64,000 nucleotides of DNA, taken from contig CALKZY010000030.1 of assembly GCA_938002965.1 (NCBI GenBank), positions 62,001-126,000 of the forward strand, in the 5' to 3' direction. The translations under genes were made by a program, and so were the position numbers. This DNA is from an uncultured Acidimicrobiales bacterium (GTDB lineage: Bacteria > Actinomycetota > Acidimicrobiia > Acidimicrobiales > SZUA-35). Shown one piece after another: positions 4,099 to 9,983 of the stretch. The notes under the pieces are model-generated. The model was not told the origin of the DNA. It saw nothing but the letters and a program-made list of their open reading frames with translations, and did not search any database. Every line of letters starts with the position of its first letter. Positions within the stretch are counted from its first letter, which is position 1.

Positions 4099-5055
4099 TT
4101 AGGGTCGAATCAGGACTTTGCCCCTAGCCCTATTGGTTCCCAGGTACTTGTAGGCATCCCGCACGTCGGCTAGGGCAAACTCCCGGTCGATGTGGGTTGT
4201 CAACACGCCTTGCTCGGCGAGAGTGGCTAGTCGGCTCAATCGCTCACTGGTCTCAGCGGCGATGAAGATGACGAGCTTGTGGGAAGACAAGGCGAACCGG
4301 GCGGCCATGGCCAGCTGTTCCGGGATCGGGCCGAGCACCCGTCCACCTTTGTTCGGCCCGACCATGACGACCCGTGACTTTGGCGCCAAGCCGCGCATCA
4401 GCTCCGAGGCCGTCCGGCTGCCTGCACACTCGACAATGACGTCATGGGTTTGATCAGTGAAATCAGACTTCGTGTAGTCAATGATCTCGTCGGCGCCAAG
4501 GCCTGCCACGAACTCGACGTTGCGTCCGCTGCACACGCCGGTGACTCTGGCGGCTCCCATGACCTTGGCCAATTGGATCGCATAGTGACCCACTCCGCCT
4601 GATGCGCCGTTGATAACCACTGACCGACCTTCGATTTCGCCTTTCTCCATTGCTTGCAAGGCGGTGATGCCGGCGATGGGAAGTCCGGCCGCGGTGTTGT
4701 CGTCGACGGAGTCGGGGATCTTCACCACCCGGTCTGATTTGGCTAGGGAGTAATCGGCGAAGGCACCGGTCATGCTGCCGAACACCCGATCGCCTGCCTT
4801 GAGGTTGGCGACCCCGGTTCCCACAGCGTCCACCACTCCGGCGGCGTCGCGCCCGACTATGAAGTGTTTGGGTTTGCGGATGCCCTCGGTGAGTCGCATG
4901 AATGTTGGCGTGCCGGTGGCCAGGTGCCAGTCGGCCGGGTTGATGGACGCCACGTTGACTGCCACCCTTACTTGGCCAGCTCCGGGTTCGGGGATCGGAA
5001 CGTCTTGGAAGGTGATGTGGTCAAGCCCGTAGTGGTCTTGGGTTGCCGCTTTCAT
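4099..5055 (-). CDS. Zinc-free MDR oxidoreductase, quinone reductase-like
   Basis: 318 residues from the ATG at 5053-5055, which has GAGGAG 8 nt upstream; an upstream in-frame start at 5106 lies inside the operator and is unlikely. Medium-chain reductase: GroES-like N-terminus (PGAGQVRVAVNVASINPADW, residues 24-43), then a Rossmann domain with INGASGGVGHYAIQLAK binding NAD(P)H. The Cys/His zinc ligands of alcohol dehydrogenases are absent, as in quinone oxidoreductases. It is likely to reduce quinones or enones. It is divergent from the TetR gene and shares the paired operator at 5087-5124, so it is probably repressed by that regulator together with the AhpD-like selenoprotein. Confidence 0.9.
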   Translation of the reverse strand: MKAATQDHYGLDHITFQDVPIPEPGAGQVRVAVNVASINPADWHLATGTPTFMRLTEGIRKPKHFIVGRDAAGVVDAVGTGVANLKAGDRVFGSMTGAFADYSLAKSDRVVKIPDSVDDNTAAGLPIAGITALQAMEKGEIEGRSVVINGASGGVGHYAIQLAKVMGAARVTGVCSGRNVEFVAGLGADEIIDYTKSDFTDQTHDVIVECAGSRTASELMRGLAPKSRVVMVGPNKGGRVLGPIPEQLAMAARFALSSHKLVIFIAAETSERLSRLATLAEQGVLTTHIDREFALADVRDAYKYLGTNRARGKVLIRP

Positions 5056-5086
5056 CGTGGTGCTCCTCAGAGTGGGCGAGTTTTGA

Positions 5087-5124
5087 CGTACACTGTACGC
5101 ACACACTTAACATACACTGTACGT
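5087..5124. promoter_or_regulatory. Paired palindromic operator between MDR and TetR genes
   Basis: Two copies of TACACTGTA (5089-5097 and 5113-5121), centres 24 bp apart. The first sits in the 13-bp palindrome CGTACACTGTACG at 5087-5099; the second is flanked by a matching CGTA half. The spacing puts both sites nearly on the same helix face. The position, between a reductase and a divergent TetR gene, is typical of a TetR autoregulatory operator. Binding itself is inferred. Confidence 0.8.
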
Positions 5125-5149: not shown

Positions 5150-5842
5150 GTGACTGTGGACTCAGCGACTGTGAACTCAGCAACTATGGACTCAGCGACT
5201 ATGGACCCAGCACTAACTACCCAACGAACGCCACTGACCCAAGAGCGAGTAGTTGCCGGCGCGGTCGACTACGCAGACCAGCACGGCTTGGGAGCACTCA
5301 GCATGCGCAAGCTGGCGACCTCCTTGGGCTTCGAAGTCATGTCGCTGTACAACCATGTCAAGAACAAACCCGATCTCATCCGTCGCATGACCGACCTAGT
5401 CGCCAACGAGATTCCGGTGCCATCTCAACCCGATGACCCCTTAGCGGCGTTGCGACAGCACGCTATTGAGATGCGGCACGCATTGGAGCGCCACTCATGG
5501 GCCGCCATGTCGTGGATCACAACCCTTCCGGGTCCGGCTCGTTGGGATCTTATGGAATGGCAGCTACGGACCGTGGCCGCCATCAACGGCCTCACCGACG
5601 AGCAAGCCCACCACGGCTACCACGCAATCACCAACCACGTCGTCGGCTACGTCCTTCAAAACGAGGTCATGCCCTTTGACGACGATGACCTGGAAGATGT
5701 TGTCCAAATGATCAAACCCGACCTCGATGAACAAGCGCACGCCCACGTCCTGAACCACATCGGCCAGCACCAACGGGGCGAACACGGCGAGTCATTTGAC
5801 TATGTGCTGGATTTGATCCTGGGAGGACTAACCGAACTATGA
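5150..5842 (+). CDS. TetR/AcrR family transcriptional regulator
   Basis: 230 residues from GTG 5150. The helix-turn-helix lies at about residues 45-70 (LSMRKLATSLGF then SLYNHVKNKPDL); the long C-terminal helical domain would bind an inducer. The first 20 codons are four 15-bp repeats encoding SAT-(V/M)-(D/N), giving alternative starts at GTG 5156, GTG 5171, ATG 5186 and ATG 5201. No ribosome site precedes any of them. A TACACT hexamer at 5137-5142 would place transcription at about the first GTG, so a leaderless message is possible. The stop overlaps the ATG of the AhpD-like gene (ATGA). It probably represses itself, that gene and the divergent MDR gene via 5087-5124. Confidence 0.9.
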   Translation: MTVDSATVNSATMDSATMDPALTTQRTPLTQERVVAGAVDYADQHGLGALSMRKLATSLGFEVMSLYNHVKNKPDLIRRMTDLVANEIPVPSQPDDPLAALRQHAIEMRHALERHSWAAMSWITTLPGPARWDLMEWQLRTVAAINGLTDEQAHHGYHAITNHVVGYVLQNEVMPFDDDDLEDVVQMIKPDLDEQAHAHVLNHIGQHQRGEHGESFDYVLDLILGGLTEL

Positions 5843-6381
5843 GCTGGATTCAGCAAGTACCGGACGACCAGTGGTGCGACGATGAACGCCTGGCCGAACT
5901 CCACCGACAAGTAGTGGACCCAGAATCAGGCAAGGTCGACCACATCATGGCCGTGCACTCGTTGAACCCCACCGGGCTGGCTGCCCACAACGCGCTATAC
6001 ATCTCGGCCATGACGGGCACGGCCACGCTGCGCAAAGTGGAGCGCGAGCTGGTGGCCTACGTGGTCTCAGTGGAGAACAGCTGTCATTATTGAATCGTTC
6101 ATCATCGGCGCGGTCTGCGCCGACTACTCAAAGACGATGACCTGCTGGCCGAGCTCGACACTGACTGGCGGTCCGCCCCGCTGTCCGAAATGCGTCGGGC
6201 CATGTTGGACTACGCCATCAAGCTGACCCATACCCCCGGCGATATGGTGCGAGCCGATGTAGAGAAGCTCCGCACCGTTGGCTACAGCGACCGCGACATT
6301 CTGGACATCGCCGAAGTCGTCGGCTACTACGCTTACGTCAACCGTATCGCCGACGGTCTTGGTGTCGAACTGGAAGCCTGA
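5839..6381 (+). CDS. AhpD-like peroxidase-related selenoprotein (CxxU), TGA at 6091-6093 read as Sec
   Basis: Read through one TGA, this is a continuous 180-residue protein of the carboxymuconolactone decarboxylase/AhpD fold (peroxidase-related enzyme type, usual length about 180). The N-terminal half ends VSVENSCHY, then TGA, then IVHHRRGLRRLL. Family members have Cys-His-Tyr-Cys here, so TGA replaces the reactive second Cys of the CxxC. The remainder (MLDYAIKLTHTPGDM, GYSDRDILDIAEVVGYYAYVNRIADGLGVELE) is a well-preserved family C-terminus in the same frame, with no decay. A SECIS-like hairpin follows at 6105-6123. Predicted role: thiol/selenol peroxidase or disulfide reductase in the cytoplasm. 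ATGA overlap with the TetR gene implies co-translation. The alternative is a nonsense mutation or a sequencing error in a Cys codon. Confidence 0.85.
6105..6123 (+). promoter_or_regulatory. Bacterial SECIS-like hairpin for selenocysteine insertion
   Basis: Seven-pair stem (TCGGCGC with GCGCCGA) closing a five-base loop GGTCT. The loop begins 18 nt after the TGA at 6091-6093. Classical E. coli fdhF SECIS has the same GGUCU loop and the same 18-nt spacing, from my memory of that sequence. In bacteria this element lies inside the coding region and is bound by SelB. It is within the AhpD-like reading frame. Confidence 0.8.
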
Positions 6382-6388
6382 CCGATCA

Positions 6389-7960
6389 TCACCCGTCCTG
6401 GGAGTCGGCGTTCGTCGTTGTCGTTGTCGTTGTCGTTGTAGTCGTAGTCGTTGACAAGAAGAGCTCGGGCCTCAGCCGTCCCAGAAGCTCAGGGTCGAGG
6501 ATCAGCCGATCATCGATGAAAAGCGGGTACTTGAACAGCTGTGGCGGAATGGTCGGTTTGAGCGGGGGCACCGTCTTGACAATCGAATCGAGAATGATTG
6601 GCGGCAGAAGCACAACCTTTGGCGGTTCGGTTGGGCAGGCACCGAACGGAACGTCGAAACTGGCGTCGAGGTCGGCGCATACCGAGGCGAAGGCTGAGAC
6701 CATGTCGGTTTCCTCAACCCAGGAGTGGAGATGCACCTCGCCTGTGGCCGGGTCGGTTGCAAACCCGGCTGATCCAACCGGGCGGTTCGAACCCAACTCC
6801 GTGACGGTCGTGGCCGAAAGGGCCGTTCCGTCGGCCATTGTGCTGTTCAACGGAGCGACCACGGCCAGGTTCTGTTGCCCGACTCCGGCGGTCAAAGCCT
6901 GCGTCAGGCCGTAGCGGTTGTCGTCGGCCAGCGAAAGGCTTGGACCGTCATCGCGGATCTGAAGGCCCCAACATGCCGTTGGGTCAGTTACCAGACTCAA
7001 TCTGTCGGCGGCGAAGATGCAGAACTGCTCAACGTCGGCTTCGGCCAGCGGGATAACGGTGACCCCGTCTGGGTCCAAGTTGAATGGACCGAGCTCGTAG
7101 AGCAGCGGGAGCTCACCGGTGAGCTGAATCCGGGGAGGCAAACCGAACGAGCTGGCCGCCGAAGCCTGCACACCGGAGGCATCGTAGGCGGCAAGTTGGA
7201 TGTCGGCAGCGTCACCATAGCCTCCGATGGCCAGCGCCGGTTCGCCGTCAACGGCTACCGCTTCCATCATCAACCACTGCTCAGGGTTGTAGTCGTAGTC
7301 GACGGTGATGCTGCCCCCGCCCCGAGATCTTCCCTCAACTCGATACGTGCCCAGCGGGTCGACCAGGGAGAGTGAGTGATCGAACCGACCTAGCTCGCTG
7401 TACTCCTCGTGGATCAACGCTCCAGCCGGGTTGAACAGCTCGAAATGCCAATAGTCAGCGACACCCTCGGCAAGGCACAAGAAAAGGTAGGTTCCACCCA
7501 GCTGCTCAAGGTAGTCCGAGTCCTGCTGTGTCCGTGAACAGTTGATCACCGGGACGCCACCGCCAGTACCGGCTCGCTGGTCGGGAGCCAGCCCGGTGTC
7601 TACCGAGGCTTCGCGGATGACGCTGAGCGCTTGCTCCTCATCCACCGCCGGCATCGAGGCTTGGTCGTCGCCGCCTTCGGACGTATCATCGCCGGGTCCG
7701 CCCGACGTCGAATCATTGCCTGCATCGTCAGATCCGTCCGAATCGCCGCCGTGCGAGCCGTCGGATGAGCCGGCGCCATCATCACGCTGACTAGTGTTCG
7801 CACCGTCGGCTTGATCGCCGGTCTGACCCCCGGCGGCGACAGCGTCGTCACCCCCTCCGAAGAAGCCGCATGCTCCAAGGACCACTGCGAGTGCTGCACA
7901 CCCGGTAAGCAGCCAGAGATGGTTGACGACTATGCGCTTCGAATGGCTAGAGGAGGTCAC
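6389..7960 (-). CDS. Large secreted lipoprotein with acidic linker and poly-Thr tail
   Basis: 523 residues from GTG 7960, chosen because AAGGAGA lies 7 nt upstream and the start overlaps the previous gene by 14 bp. Lipobox LGAC after a hydrophobic stretch (LLTGCAALAVVLGAC) predicts a membrane-attached lipoprotein. A Ser/Gly/Asp linker of about 75 residues follows, then a beta-rich domain with Cys pairs (VINCS, YLFLCLAEG, EQFCIF, TACWG). The C-terminus ends in a run of about 13 Thr codons (6413-6451) before NADSQDG. I recognise no enzyme family. It is the last gene of the operon with the transglutaminase-like protein and LCAT-like hydrolase. It is convergent with the selenoprotein with a 7-bp gap. 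Confidence 0.8.
   Translation of the reverse strand: MTSSSHSKRIVVNHLWLLTGCAALAVVLGACGFFGGGDDAVAAGGQTGDQADGANTSQRDDGAGSSDGSHGGDSDGSDDAGNDSTSGGPGDDTSEGGDDQASMPAVDEEQALSVIREASVDTGLAPDQRAGTGGGVPVINCSRTQQDSDYLEQLGGTYLFLCLAEGVADYWHFELFNPAGALIHEEYSELGRFDHSLSLVDPLGTYRVEGRSRGGGSITVDYDYNPEQWLMMEAVAVDGEPALAIGGYGDAADIQLAAYDASGVQASAASSFGLPPRIQLTGELPLLYELGPFNLDPDGVTVIPLAEADVEQFCIFAADRLSLVTDPTACWGLQIRDDGPSLSLADDNRYGLTQALTAGVGQQNLAVVAPLNSTMADGTALSATTVTELGSNRPVGSAGFATDPATGEVHLHSWVEETDMVSAFASVCADLDASFDVPFGACPTEPPKVVLLPPIILDSIVKTVPPLKPTIPPQLFKYPLFIDDRLILDPELLGRLRPELFLSTTTTTTTTTTTTTNADSQDG
6413..6451. repeat. Thr-codon simple repeat in lipoprotein C-terminus
   Basis: Thirteen consecutive ACx codons on the minus strand, largely alternating ACG/ACA, so the DNA is a near-perfect 6-bp repeat (CGTTGT on the plus strand). 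Such tracts can change length by slippage in steps that keep the frame only in multiples of three. It sits at the extreme C-terminus of the lipoprotein. Confidence 0.8.
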
Positions 7961-9983
7961 GGCAGGTCTCCTTGTTTGCTTGGGGATCAAAGTCAGGAAA
8001 GTCGGATAGAAGGTCGCTTCGAATCTCGTCGTGAACGAAGCCTTGCGAAAGTAGAGGTGATAGGCATTGAGCCAACAGTGCGTCGGCTTCGGCCCGGGCG
8101 GGATCAGCGAGGGTGTAGTCACGGTCGGCCAGCATCAATGCCCGAAGCGTCAGCGCCCGCGACGCAATGTGAGCTACGCGTTGCTGTTCGTCGAAGTCAC
8201 TGCGTAGTCGGTAGGTCTCAACTACATCCGACAACTGACCCAGGGCGGCCTGTCCATTGGTTTCTCCCACTCGCCAACGACACCAGCTGATCCAAGCCTG
8301 GGCGAGATCGGCCTTGATAGTGATTTCGGCCGGGTCTGTGGCCGACCGGCCAGGGGATCGTTCCAGACCGGCTTCTCTAGCGGCTGCAACTTGATTCTCC
8401 GCTTCGGCTAACTCCGCCGGGTCGTAGGAATCGGGGAGACAACCTGAATGCAGGAGGAGGAGTTGGGCGTATCCGATTCGGGCTCGAGCCGCGATTTGCG
8501 GATCGACGTCGTCGCCCAGACGTACGGCTTCGGTGAACGCCGCGGCACCCAACTCAAAATTGCGGTCTCGGGGTTCGTCGGCATTGGCAGGTAGTGTGCC
8601 GTCCAACATGACATGGGCCCCACCGACCAGCAGTCGAGCCAGCGCGGTCAACTGGTCGGCCTTGCCAGATCTTTCGTTGCTGTCAGCAATGTCGTCGAAC
8701 AGTGTTCGGGCCTCAAGCAGGTCGTCGGCGGAAGTGGCGTCGTAGAGAATGGCGAGACCGGTCAGCAAGTCGATCCAACGGTTGACTTCGGGTTGCAGAT
8801 CAGCGGCTATGGCCTGGACCGAACCGTTGGTTCCGGCGCTGTCTCGGCGAATGGCGACCGGGCCGACGATGCCACCAAGATCAGCCCGACTGCTGGGCTG
8901 AAACCAGATGTTGACGTCGACGAACGTGGTGAAGCCCTCGTCGACCAGGCCGTATACGGCGACGTCGATGTTACGTTTGGCCAGCTCCGGTCCCAGGTCG
9001 TCATCAAGAGCAGGCCCGTCGCCGACGTCGACATTCAGCTCACCGGGACCCCAAACGCCCCATCCCGGTCGTCGATCGGTTCGGAGTTGCTCGTTGGCAT
9101 CGAGGCCCTGTCGTAGCCGCAACGTGAGATCCGATGCCACTGCTCCGGCCACAGCGTTGTCTCCCTTGCCGTCGTAGGCGAAGGGGTAGACGGTCAGGTT
9201 GGCGCCATCACTTTCAGCCATGGCCGGAGGATCTGGTTGCAGCATTAGCCACCCTGCTCCGGCGGTCAGAGCAATAGCGGCGGCAACAGTGGCCCCGACC
9301 TTGGGGATGGAGACCCCGCGGCAAGGGCGGGGCTCGACTCGGCCGTCTTGTTGAAGCTGTCGGGGGTCGAAGAAGAAGTCGAGCGGCCTGGCCTCGATGT
9401 TGGCCAACGCTCGCTCTCGAGCAGTTTCGAAATCGAAGTCGTAGTTTCGGCCGTTGGCCATTCCCGTGCACTCCACCGGTACGACGGTCTGGTTGTCGAT
9501 TAGCGAGCGCAAAGTGTCAATGTCGCGTGACGGTTCAGGCAATGGGGGAGCAAAGTTGGTATCGACGACAGCGGCCAAGGCGTGGCCTTCCAACACGATG
9601 ATCAGTGGCCGTAAGCCCTCGTTCAAGCAGGCCCCGGCATACAGCAGAGCCAGGTCCAGGCAGGTGGCCCGCCGACGTGTCCAAACTTGATGCGGGGTTC
9701 GAATACGTTGGACGGCGTTAGTGTCGGGCACGTAGCCTTCGAGGTCGTAGTCGACCTCTTGGGCCGCGATGGCCTGGTACAACAACTCGGCCACTGTGAG
9801 CCGCTGATGATCGTCGATCAAATCCCTAACGGTGGTTTCACCTTCAGGCTCGACAGACGGCACAACCTCGGCCACACACTCGGGATTGACGAACTCAGCC
9901 AGCGATGCCTCTTGGACCTTACGCCAGTGCCACGGCCGGTGATAGAAGTCGGTCAATAGGCCCATAGCAGTCTGTGCGCTCAA
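7947..9983 (-). CDS. Transglutaminase-like membrane protein with extracellular helical-repeat region
   Basis: 678 residues. The N-terminal about 220 contain a papain-like transglutaminase core: RRATCLDLALLYAGACL (candidate nucleophile Cys), followed about 25 residues later by LEGHALAAV (candidate His). An acidic residue for the triad is plausible in the next strand (VVDTN). A transmembrane helix, VGATVAAAIALTAGAGWLML, follows at about 226-245. Beyond it is an alpha/beta region, then TPR-like helices with ELGAAAFTEAVRLGDD and ARARIGYAQLLLLHSG. So a cytoplasmic protease-like or crosslinking domain is tethered to an external scaffold. It overlaps the upstream hydrolase by 4 bp and the downstream lipoprotein by 14 bp: one operon. 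Function unknown; the transglutaminase call rests on the C and H motifs. Confidence 0.7.
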   Translation of the reverse strand: MSAQTAMGLLTDFYHRPWHWRKVQEASLAEFVNPECVAEVVPSVEPEGETTVRDLIDDHQRLTVAELLYQAIAAQEVDYDLEGYVPDTNAVQRIRTPHQVWTRRRATCLDLALLYAGACLNEGLRPLIIVLEGHALAAVVDTNFAPPLPEPSRDIDTLRSLIDNQTVVPVECTGMANGRNYDFDFETARERALANIEARPLDFFFDPRQLQQDGRVEPRPCRGVSIPKVGATVAAAIALTAGAGWLMLQPDPPAMAESDGANLTVYPFAYDGKGDNAVAGAVASDLTLRLRQGLDANEQLRTDRRPGWGVWGPGELNVDVGDGPALDDDLGPELAKRNIDVAVYGLVDEGFTTFVDVNIWFQPSSRADLGGIVGPVAIRRDSAGTNGSVQAIAADLQPEVNRWIDLLTGLAILYDATSADDLLEARTLFDDIADSNERSGKADQLTALARLLVGGAHVMLDGTLPANADEPRDRNFELGAAAFTEAVRLGDDVDPQIAARARIGYAQLLLLHSGCLPDSYDPAELAEAENQVAAAREAGLERSPGRSATDPAEITIKADLAQAWISWCRWRVGETNGQAALGQLSDVVETYRLRSDFDEQQRVAHIASRALTLRALMLADRDYTLADPARAEADALLAQCLSPLLSQGFVHDEIRSDLLSDFPDFDPQANKETCRDLL

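Follow-up and report, generated by a model that had tools for sequence, protein, structure and literature searches.

The hairpin lying just 3' of an in-frame UGA in the 64,000-nt window, i.e., the whole stretch of DNA analysed here from an uncultured Acidimicrobiales bacterium, is predicted to be a bacterial SECIS element (bSECIS) with which SelB would deliver selenocysteine (Sec) at that UGA, the product being an AhpD-like, peroxidase-related selenoenzyme. A probability of about 0.96 was assigned to this reading on the basis of sequence comparisons, and none of the tests contradicted it. The coordinates of the features are detailed in Table 1.

Table 1. Positions in the window of the predicted selenoprotein gene, its recoding elements and the adjoining regulatory features.
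Feature	Position	Strand	Basis
Palindrome CGTACA-C-TGTACG (CGTACACTGTACG), predicted TetR operator	5087..5099		Similar sites in relatives
Second palindrome TACA-C-TGTA (TACACTGTA), predicted TetR operator	5113..5121		Sequence
TetR-family regulator, directly upstream of the selenoprotein gene	5150..5842	+	Pfam: TetR_C_1 exceeds its cut-off; TetR_N reaches 23.9 bits (cut-off 24)
Predicted AhpD-like selenoprotein gene (TIGR01926 peroxidase-related enzyme, CMD family), 180 residues, Sec85	5839..6381	+	Orthologues
In-frame UGA, predicted to be read as selenocysteine, motif C82-H-Y-U85	6091..6093	+	TGA in 131/132 distinct orthologue rows, among the matches listed
Putative bSECIS hairpin, stem 6105-6111 / 6117-6123	6105..6123	+	Sequence, fold, synonymous covariation
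Apical GGUCU loop, starting 18 nt past the UGA	6112..6116	+	GGTCT in 128/130 UGA rows

The gene runs from an ATG at 5839 to a terminal stop at 6379-6381, which is likewise a TGA, and its frame is open apart from the internal UGA. The protein was assigned to TIGR01926 (131 bits against a cut-off of 81.8) and scored over the cut-off of Pfam CMD. NF041238, the AhpD_rel_CFYUT (seleno)protein family, has in common with it a related AhpD fold and a CxxU site, but the window protein is not a member (it scores 37.5 bits, the cut-off being 175). The CxxU motif, encoded with the in-frame UGA, is present as C-H-Y-U, and the layout of the active site is E70-x11-C82-H-Y-U85-x3-H89; in the alignment, the Sec position corresponds to the second cysteine of the AhpD-type arrangement E-x11-C-x2-C-x3-H. 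The TIGR01926-type structures 2pfx, 3c1l and 2oyo are collinear with the protein over the domain and have Cys (C-x-x-C) where the window has C-H-Y-UGA, the complete E-x11-C-x2-C-x3-H arrangement being shared in the 2pfx alignment. The closest named relatives were metagenome-assembled Acidimicrobiales, the best of them (L238) with 84% identity. One orthologue with 58% identity (L275) was found on a contig labelled as a Planctomycetota MAG, which may be due to mis-binning or transfer.

Direct reading of the sequence confirmed the perfect 7-bp stem (TCGGCGC/GCGCCGA) and the GGUCU loop closed by it, at the distance from the UGA given in the original prediction. Folding of 50 nt of RNA returned exactly this 7-bp hairpin, with a modest advantage in energy over shuffled sequences (z -1.89; 12 of 200 shuffles were as good); the folding energy by itself is weak evidence for the hairpin. 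The motif count is stronger evidence. The two strands of the window have 1069 and 1017 TGAs, 2086 in all, and a single one of these is followed after 18 nt by GGTC on a Watson-Crick stem of 6 bp or more; 300 first-order Markov sequences gave a chance expectation of 0.013 per window. When the spacing was relaxed to 13-37 nt the composite motif was still unique in the window (0.31 expected). Rfam searches over the window and over positions 5850-6400 retrieved no SECIS family and nothing over the gathering score; weak Rfam matches on the opposite strand were judged to be due to chance.

Conservation was studied in 204 distinct rows, obtained from 215 loci (one giving two rows) after merging identical aligned DNA; class-level matches were taken from those listed, and those beyond them, as well as a partial match in genome G645, were left out. 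Rows aligning to the window protein with a score of 479 or more form a main group of 132; one partial row (L035) falls under this score, though its loop is identical. Another 50 named loci served for neighbourhood and naming, outside the conservation counts. At family level (39 genomes) all 15 matches have one in-frame TGA besides the terminal stop of the window gene, and at order level (397 genomes), where 67 genomes gave a match at E ≤1e-30, the same is true of 68 of the 69 matches. After the class and phylum searches, the codon at the site was TGA in 180 of the 204 rows, Cys in 21 more distant homologues, and TGG, TTA and GCC in one row each, among the matches listed.

Within the main group, again among the matches listed, the site is TGA in 131 of 132 rows, and the Glu, first Cys and His of the AhpD-type arrangement are present in 132/132. 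The glycine of the loop is encoded by GGT, at exactly the same spacing, in 130/132 rows, and the following leucine by CTG, also in 130/132. Among the 130 listed UGA rows scoring 480 or more in the alignment, the loop is GGTCT in 128 and GGGCT in two. The original prediction had made its case depend on close relatives that keep the UGA, and these conserve the hairpin as well, in agreement with the bSECIS model.

The stem and loop are translated, and the prediction that the hairpin is independent of the protein alignment stands in part: the hairpin overlaps the codons of a conserved peptide, HHRRGLRR, and the third codon positions alone are independent. Protein constraint and codon preference alone could maintain the hairpin sequence, Sec being inserted by means of another RNA feature. 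The near invariance of HHRRGLRR is in accordance with such an origin, but the leucine codons at +33, +36 and +51 are drawn from six codons each and nearby Leu and Ala residues show free codon choice in the 132 rows, against the nearly fixed GGT and CTG of the loop, among the matches listed. Moreover, offsets 17 and 29 from the UGA, which are third positions of codons that are nearly always arginine, covary through all four Watson-Crick pairs. They are paired in 122 of 123 distinct sequence segments among the matches listed (G-C 88, G-U 15, C-G 13, A-U 4, U-A 2, A-C 1), compared with a mean of 92.8 and a maximum of 103 in 2000 shuffles. When the 3' side was shifted by 1 to 6 positions, pairing over the whole stem decreased from 89.4% to 19.1-56.3%. 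The compensatory changes in homologues proposed as a check are therefore present at synonymous sites; maintenance of stem pairing through such changes argues for selection at the RNA level, and this in turn for a functional SECIS, so that conservation through protein and codon preference alone is very improbable.

The outer pairs were close to the shuffle mean (15/31 paired in 104/123 and 14/32 in 58/123), and because of this lack of excess the conserved core comprises about five pairs. A strict test of independent pairs on starred branches found five pairs differing at offset 17, with about two partner changes in the same way and none in the opposite; this result is not significant, as the supported pairs are too few. 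An orthologue with 63% identity (L130, G629:C116) has TTA in place of TGA; its loop is retained, as is the stem, in which a U-A pair is compensated. Its genome, 79% complete, gave no selB match, and the TTA is due either to faulty assembly or to Sec having been lost recently.

The genes for Sec decoding, selA, selB, selC and selD, are present in the same genome. The selA gene (393.3 bits against a cut-off of 267.9) adjoins selB (271.1 bits against 242.25), and the tRNA-Sec gene scored 66.3 bits against a gathering score of 47 and was called tRNA-SeC, anticodon tca, by ARAGORN. The tRNA-Sec gene occurs widely in the order (236 of 397 sampled genomes), and it was detected in 64 of 67 carriers of the selenoprotein gene against 172 of the 330 other genomes of the order (Fisher p 6e-13, lists compared by eye). 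For the family alone, with 13 of 15 carriers against 16 of 24 others, the difference is not significant. The carriers in the order with no tRNA-Sec match are G032, G107 and G413 (88, 80 and 84% complete, respectively), and those in the family (G024 and G032) both have selB.

These genes bear on another reading, in which stop-codon reassignment or generic readthrough would place a standard residue at the UGA and Sec would take no part. The collinearity of the translation with Cys homologues implies only that something is inserted at the site. The gene itself terminates in TGA, almost every match has just one internal TGA, at one site, this site aligns with a Cys of a CxxC motif and is followed by the conserved hairpin, and the genome has complete Sec machinery; such decoding is accordingly given very little weight. 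The least probable explanation is that the UGA arose by random nonsense mutation in a gene under decay, or through faulty assembly, and that the hairpin is a coincidence of GC-rich Arg codons; it is practically dismissed, as the original prediction had anticipated, by the conservation of the UGA throughout the class (131/132 distinct orthologue rows among the matches listed), the otherwise open frame and the covariation of synonymous sites, even if the fold energy z is merely -1.89 and the stem is made of CGN arginine codons of a conserved peptide.

The selD gene of the same genome (L095, G000:C17:47905-48840) also has an in-frame TGA (HGAG-U-ACK), with a candidate SECIS, the hairpin GCGCA CGTGT TGCGC, about 31 nt downstream of it. 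One TGA was observed in 31 of 33 selD matches of the family, and several family relatives have the selD hairpin at approximately the same place with a GTT or CGTGY loop; these hairpins were sampled with a pattern that caught 17 places (one judged spurious) in 30 loci.

The bulged U in the upper stem of the E. coli fdhF element is important for SelB. The similarity to fdhF noted in the original prediction holds for the loop and its distance but not for the whole fold. In E. coli K-12 fdhF (NC_000913.3, L237), GGTC is at offset 21 from the UGA, that is 18 nt after it, identical to the window; the fdhF element has the bulged U and a longer lower helix, whereas the window hairpin is a bulge-free 7-bp stem that has neither. 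The host genes are unrelated, encoding formate dehydrogenase H and an AhpD-like protein, respectively.

The GGUCU loop and the 18-nt distance were also set against the bSECIS criteria in the available part of a 2026 review (PMC13188914), which lists an 'AhpD-like protein, TIGR01926, CxxU'. AhpD-like selenoproteins (COG2128, CxxU, 27 sequences) were described from the Sargasso Sea by Zhang et al. 2005 (PMC1088965), and, according to the portions available of the respective articles, they were found again in GOS data (PMC2398784) and in sequenced bacteria (PMC1794560). As far as the available parts of PMC1088965 and PMC13188914 extend, these proteins belong to the same family, with a CxxU motif and a downstream SECIS hairpin with a loop G; they were described from marine metagenomes and other bacteria, and their comparison with the window is by description only. 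The family is therefore not new, as it was reported in 2005 and TIGR01926 appears in the 2026 review. In those same parts of the two articles, neither Acidimicrobiia nor two hairpin positions were found to be mentioned, nor was a GGUCU loop kept at constant spacing throughout a clade. A literature search on selenocysteine or selenoproteins in Acidimicrobiia found no paper, and another on TIGR01926 as a selenoprotein retrieved only the review PMC13188914; Sec use in this clade seems to be little described in the literature searched.

Other hairpin geometries were found in the 49 other UGA rows. In 24 of them, among the matches listed, the best hairpin has a GGTC loop 25 nt past the UGA, and further rows show related loops, likewise with a G, at 24 nt; the LxDLRxE subgroup accounts for most of these. 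This sister UGA subgroup (part of L163-L205), in which the GGTC hairpin stands 25 nt rather than 18 nt from the UGA, includes many members with genomes of about 1 Mb from one genus (g213). Two distant UGA rows, with the residues GEGLFR and GEGLLR at that place, keep GGTC at 18 nt on a different compensated stem, and a few of the 49 rows have no strong hairpin. In a quick FastTree tree of weak support, the Sec/Cys/other state changes seven times, and the tree cannot separate gain from loss. Tentatively, one family with one Sec codon may have two fixed hairpin positions: GGUCU at 18 nt in the large group from Acidimicrobiia, and at about 24-25 nt, in the LxDLRxE sister group, GGUC or a G-containing loop akin to it, the hairpin having moved, or Sec having been gained separately from Cys ancestors, with GGU-type loops kept or evolved again. 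If true, actinobacterial SelB would recognise fdhF-like loops at two or more distances.

The stop of the upstream TetR gene overlaps the start of the selenoprotein gene (ATGA at 5839-5842), and because of this overlap the two genes probably form one operon. The palindromes (5087-5121) lie between this predicted operon and a divergent zinc-type dehydrogenase (4099-5106, minus strand), whose true start is probably inside the ORF, and they are probably operators of the adjoining TetR. Similar palindromes occur in the closest relatives, two in L238 and one in L023. Homologues of the window TetR were beside the gene in one of the 50 named loci (L238), and those of the neighbouring dehydrogenase in two of 50; the link with TetR is thus confined to the closest relatives. 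A cluster search of neighbouring ORFs for a conserved operon partner gave none that was convincing, its largest cluster being judged an antisense frame of the selenoprotein gene itself. The convergent neighbour (6389-8122, minus strand) is an ORF of 577 aa, ending in a threonine run encoded by a GTT/GTC-type repeat around 6410-6455, and its tested part (6392-7966) had no Pfam match.

In AhpD, the second active-site residue attacks the peroxide. For the window gene, SelB carrying Sec-tRNA(Sec) is predicted to bind the GGUCU-capped mRNA hairpin and to deliver selenocysteine once the UGA enters the ribosomal A site. Sec85 would take the place of the second cysteine in the CxxC active site, and the selenoenzyme would probably act as a reductase of peroxides or of a related oxidant, C82 serving as the resolving residue. 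Binding of the hairpin by SelB and Sec-tRNA(Sec) and decoding of the UGA are described in the available part of PMC13188914.

Both the protein family and the mechanism are already known, and here the RNA signal is unusually well conserved across the bacterial class Acidimicrobiia. Further observations are the near-invariant loop and spacing in Acidimicrobiia, the location of the hairpin 25 nt past the UGA in the sister group, and the UUA orthologue that keeps the hairpin. An annotation blind to Sec would split the gene or call it a pseudogene, while it is most probably an intact selenoprotein gene. Additionally, well over a hundred natural variants of one putative SECIS, with synonymous covariation, are available, a set useful for testing the loop and distance needs of high-GC actinobacterial SelB.
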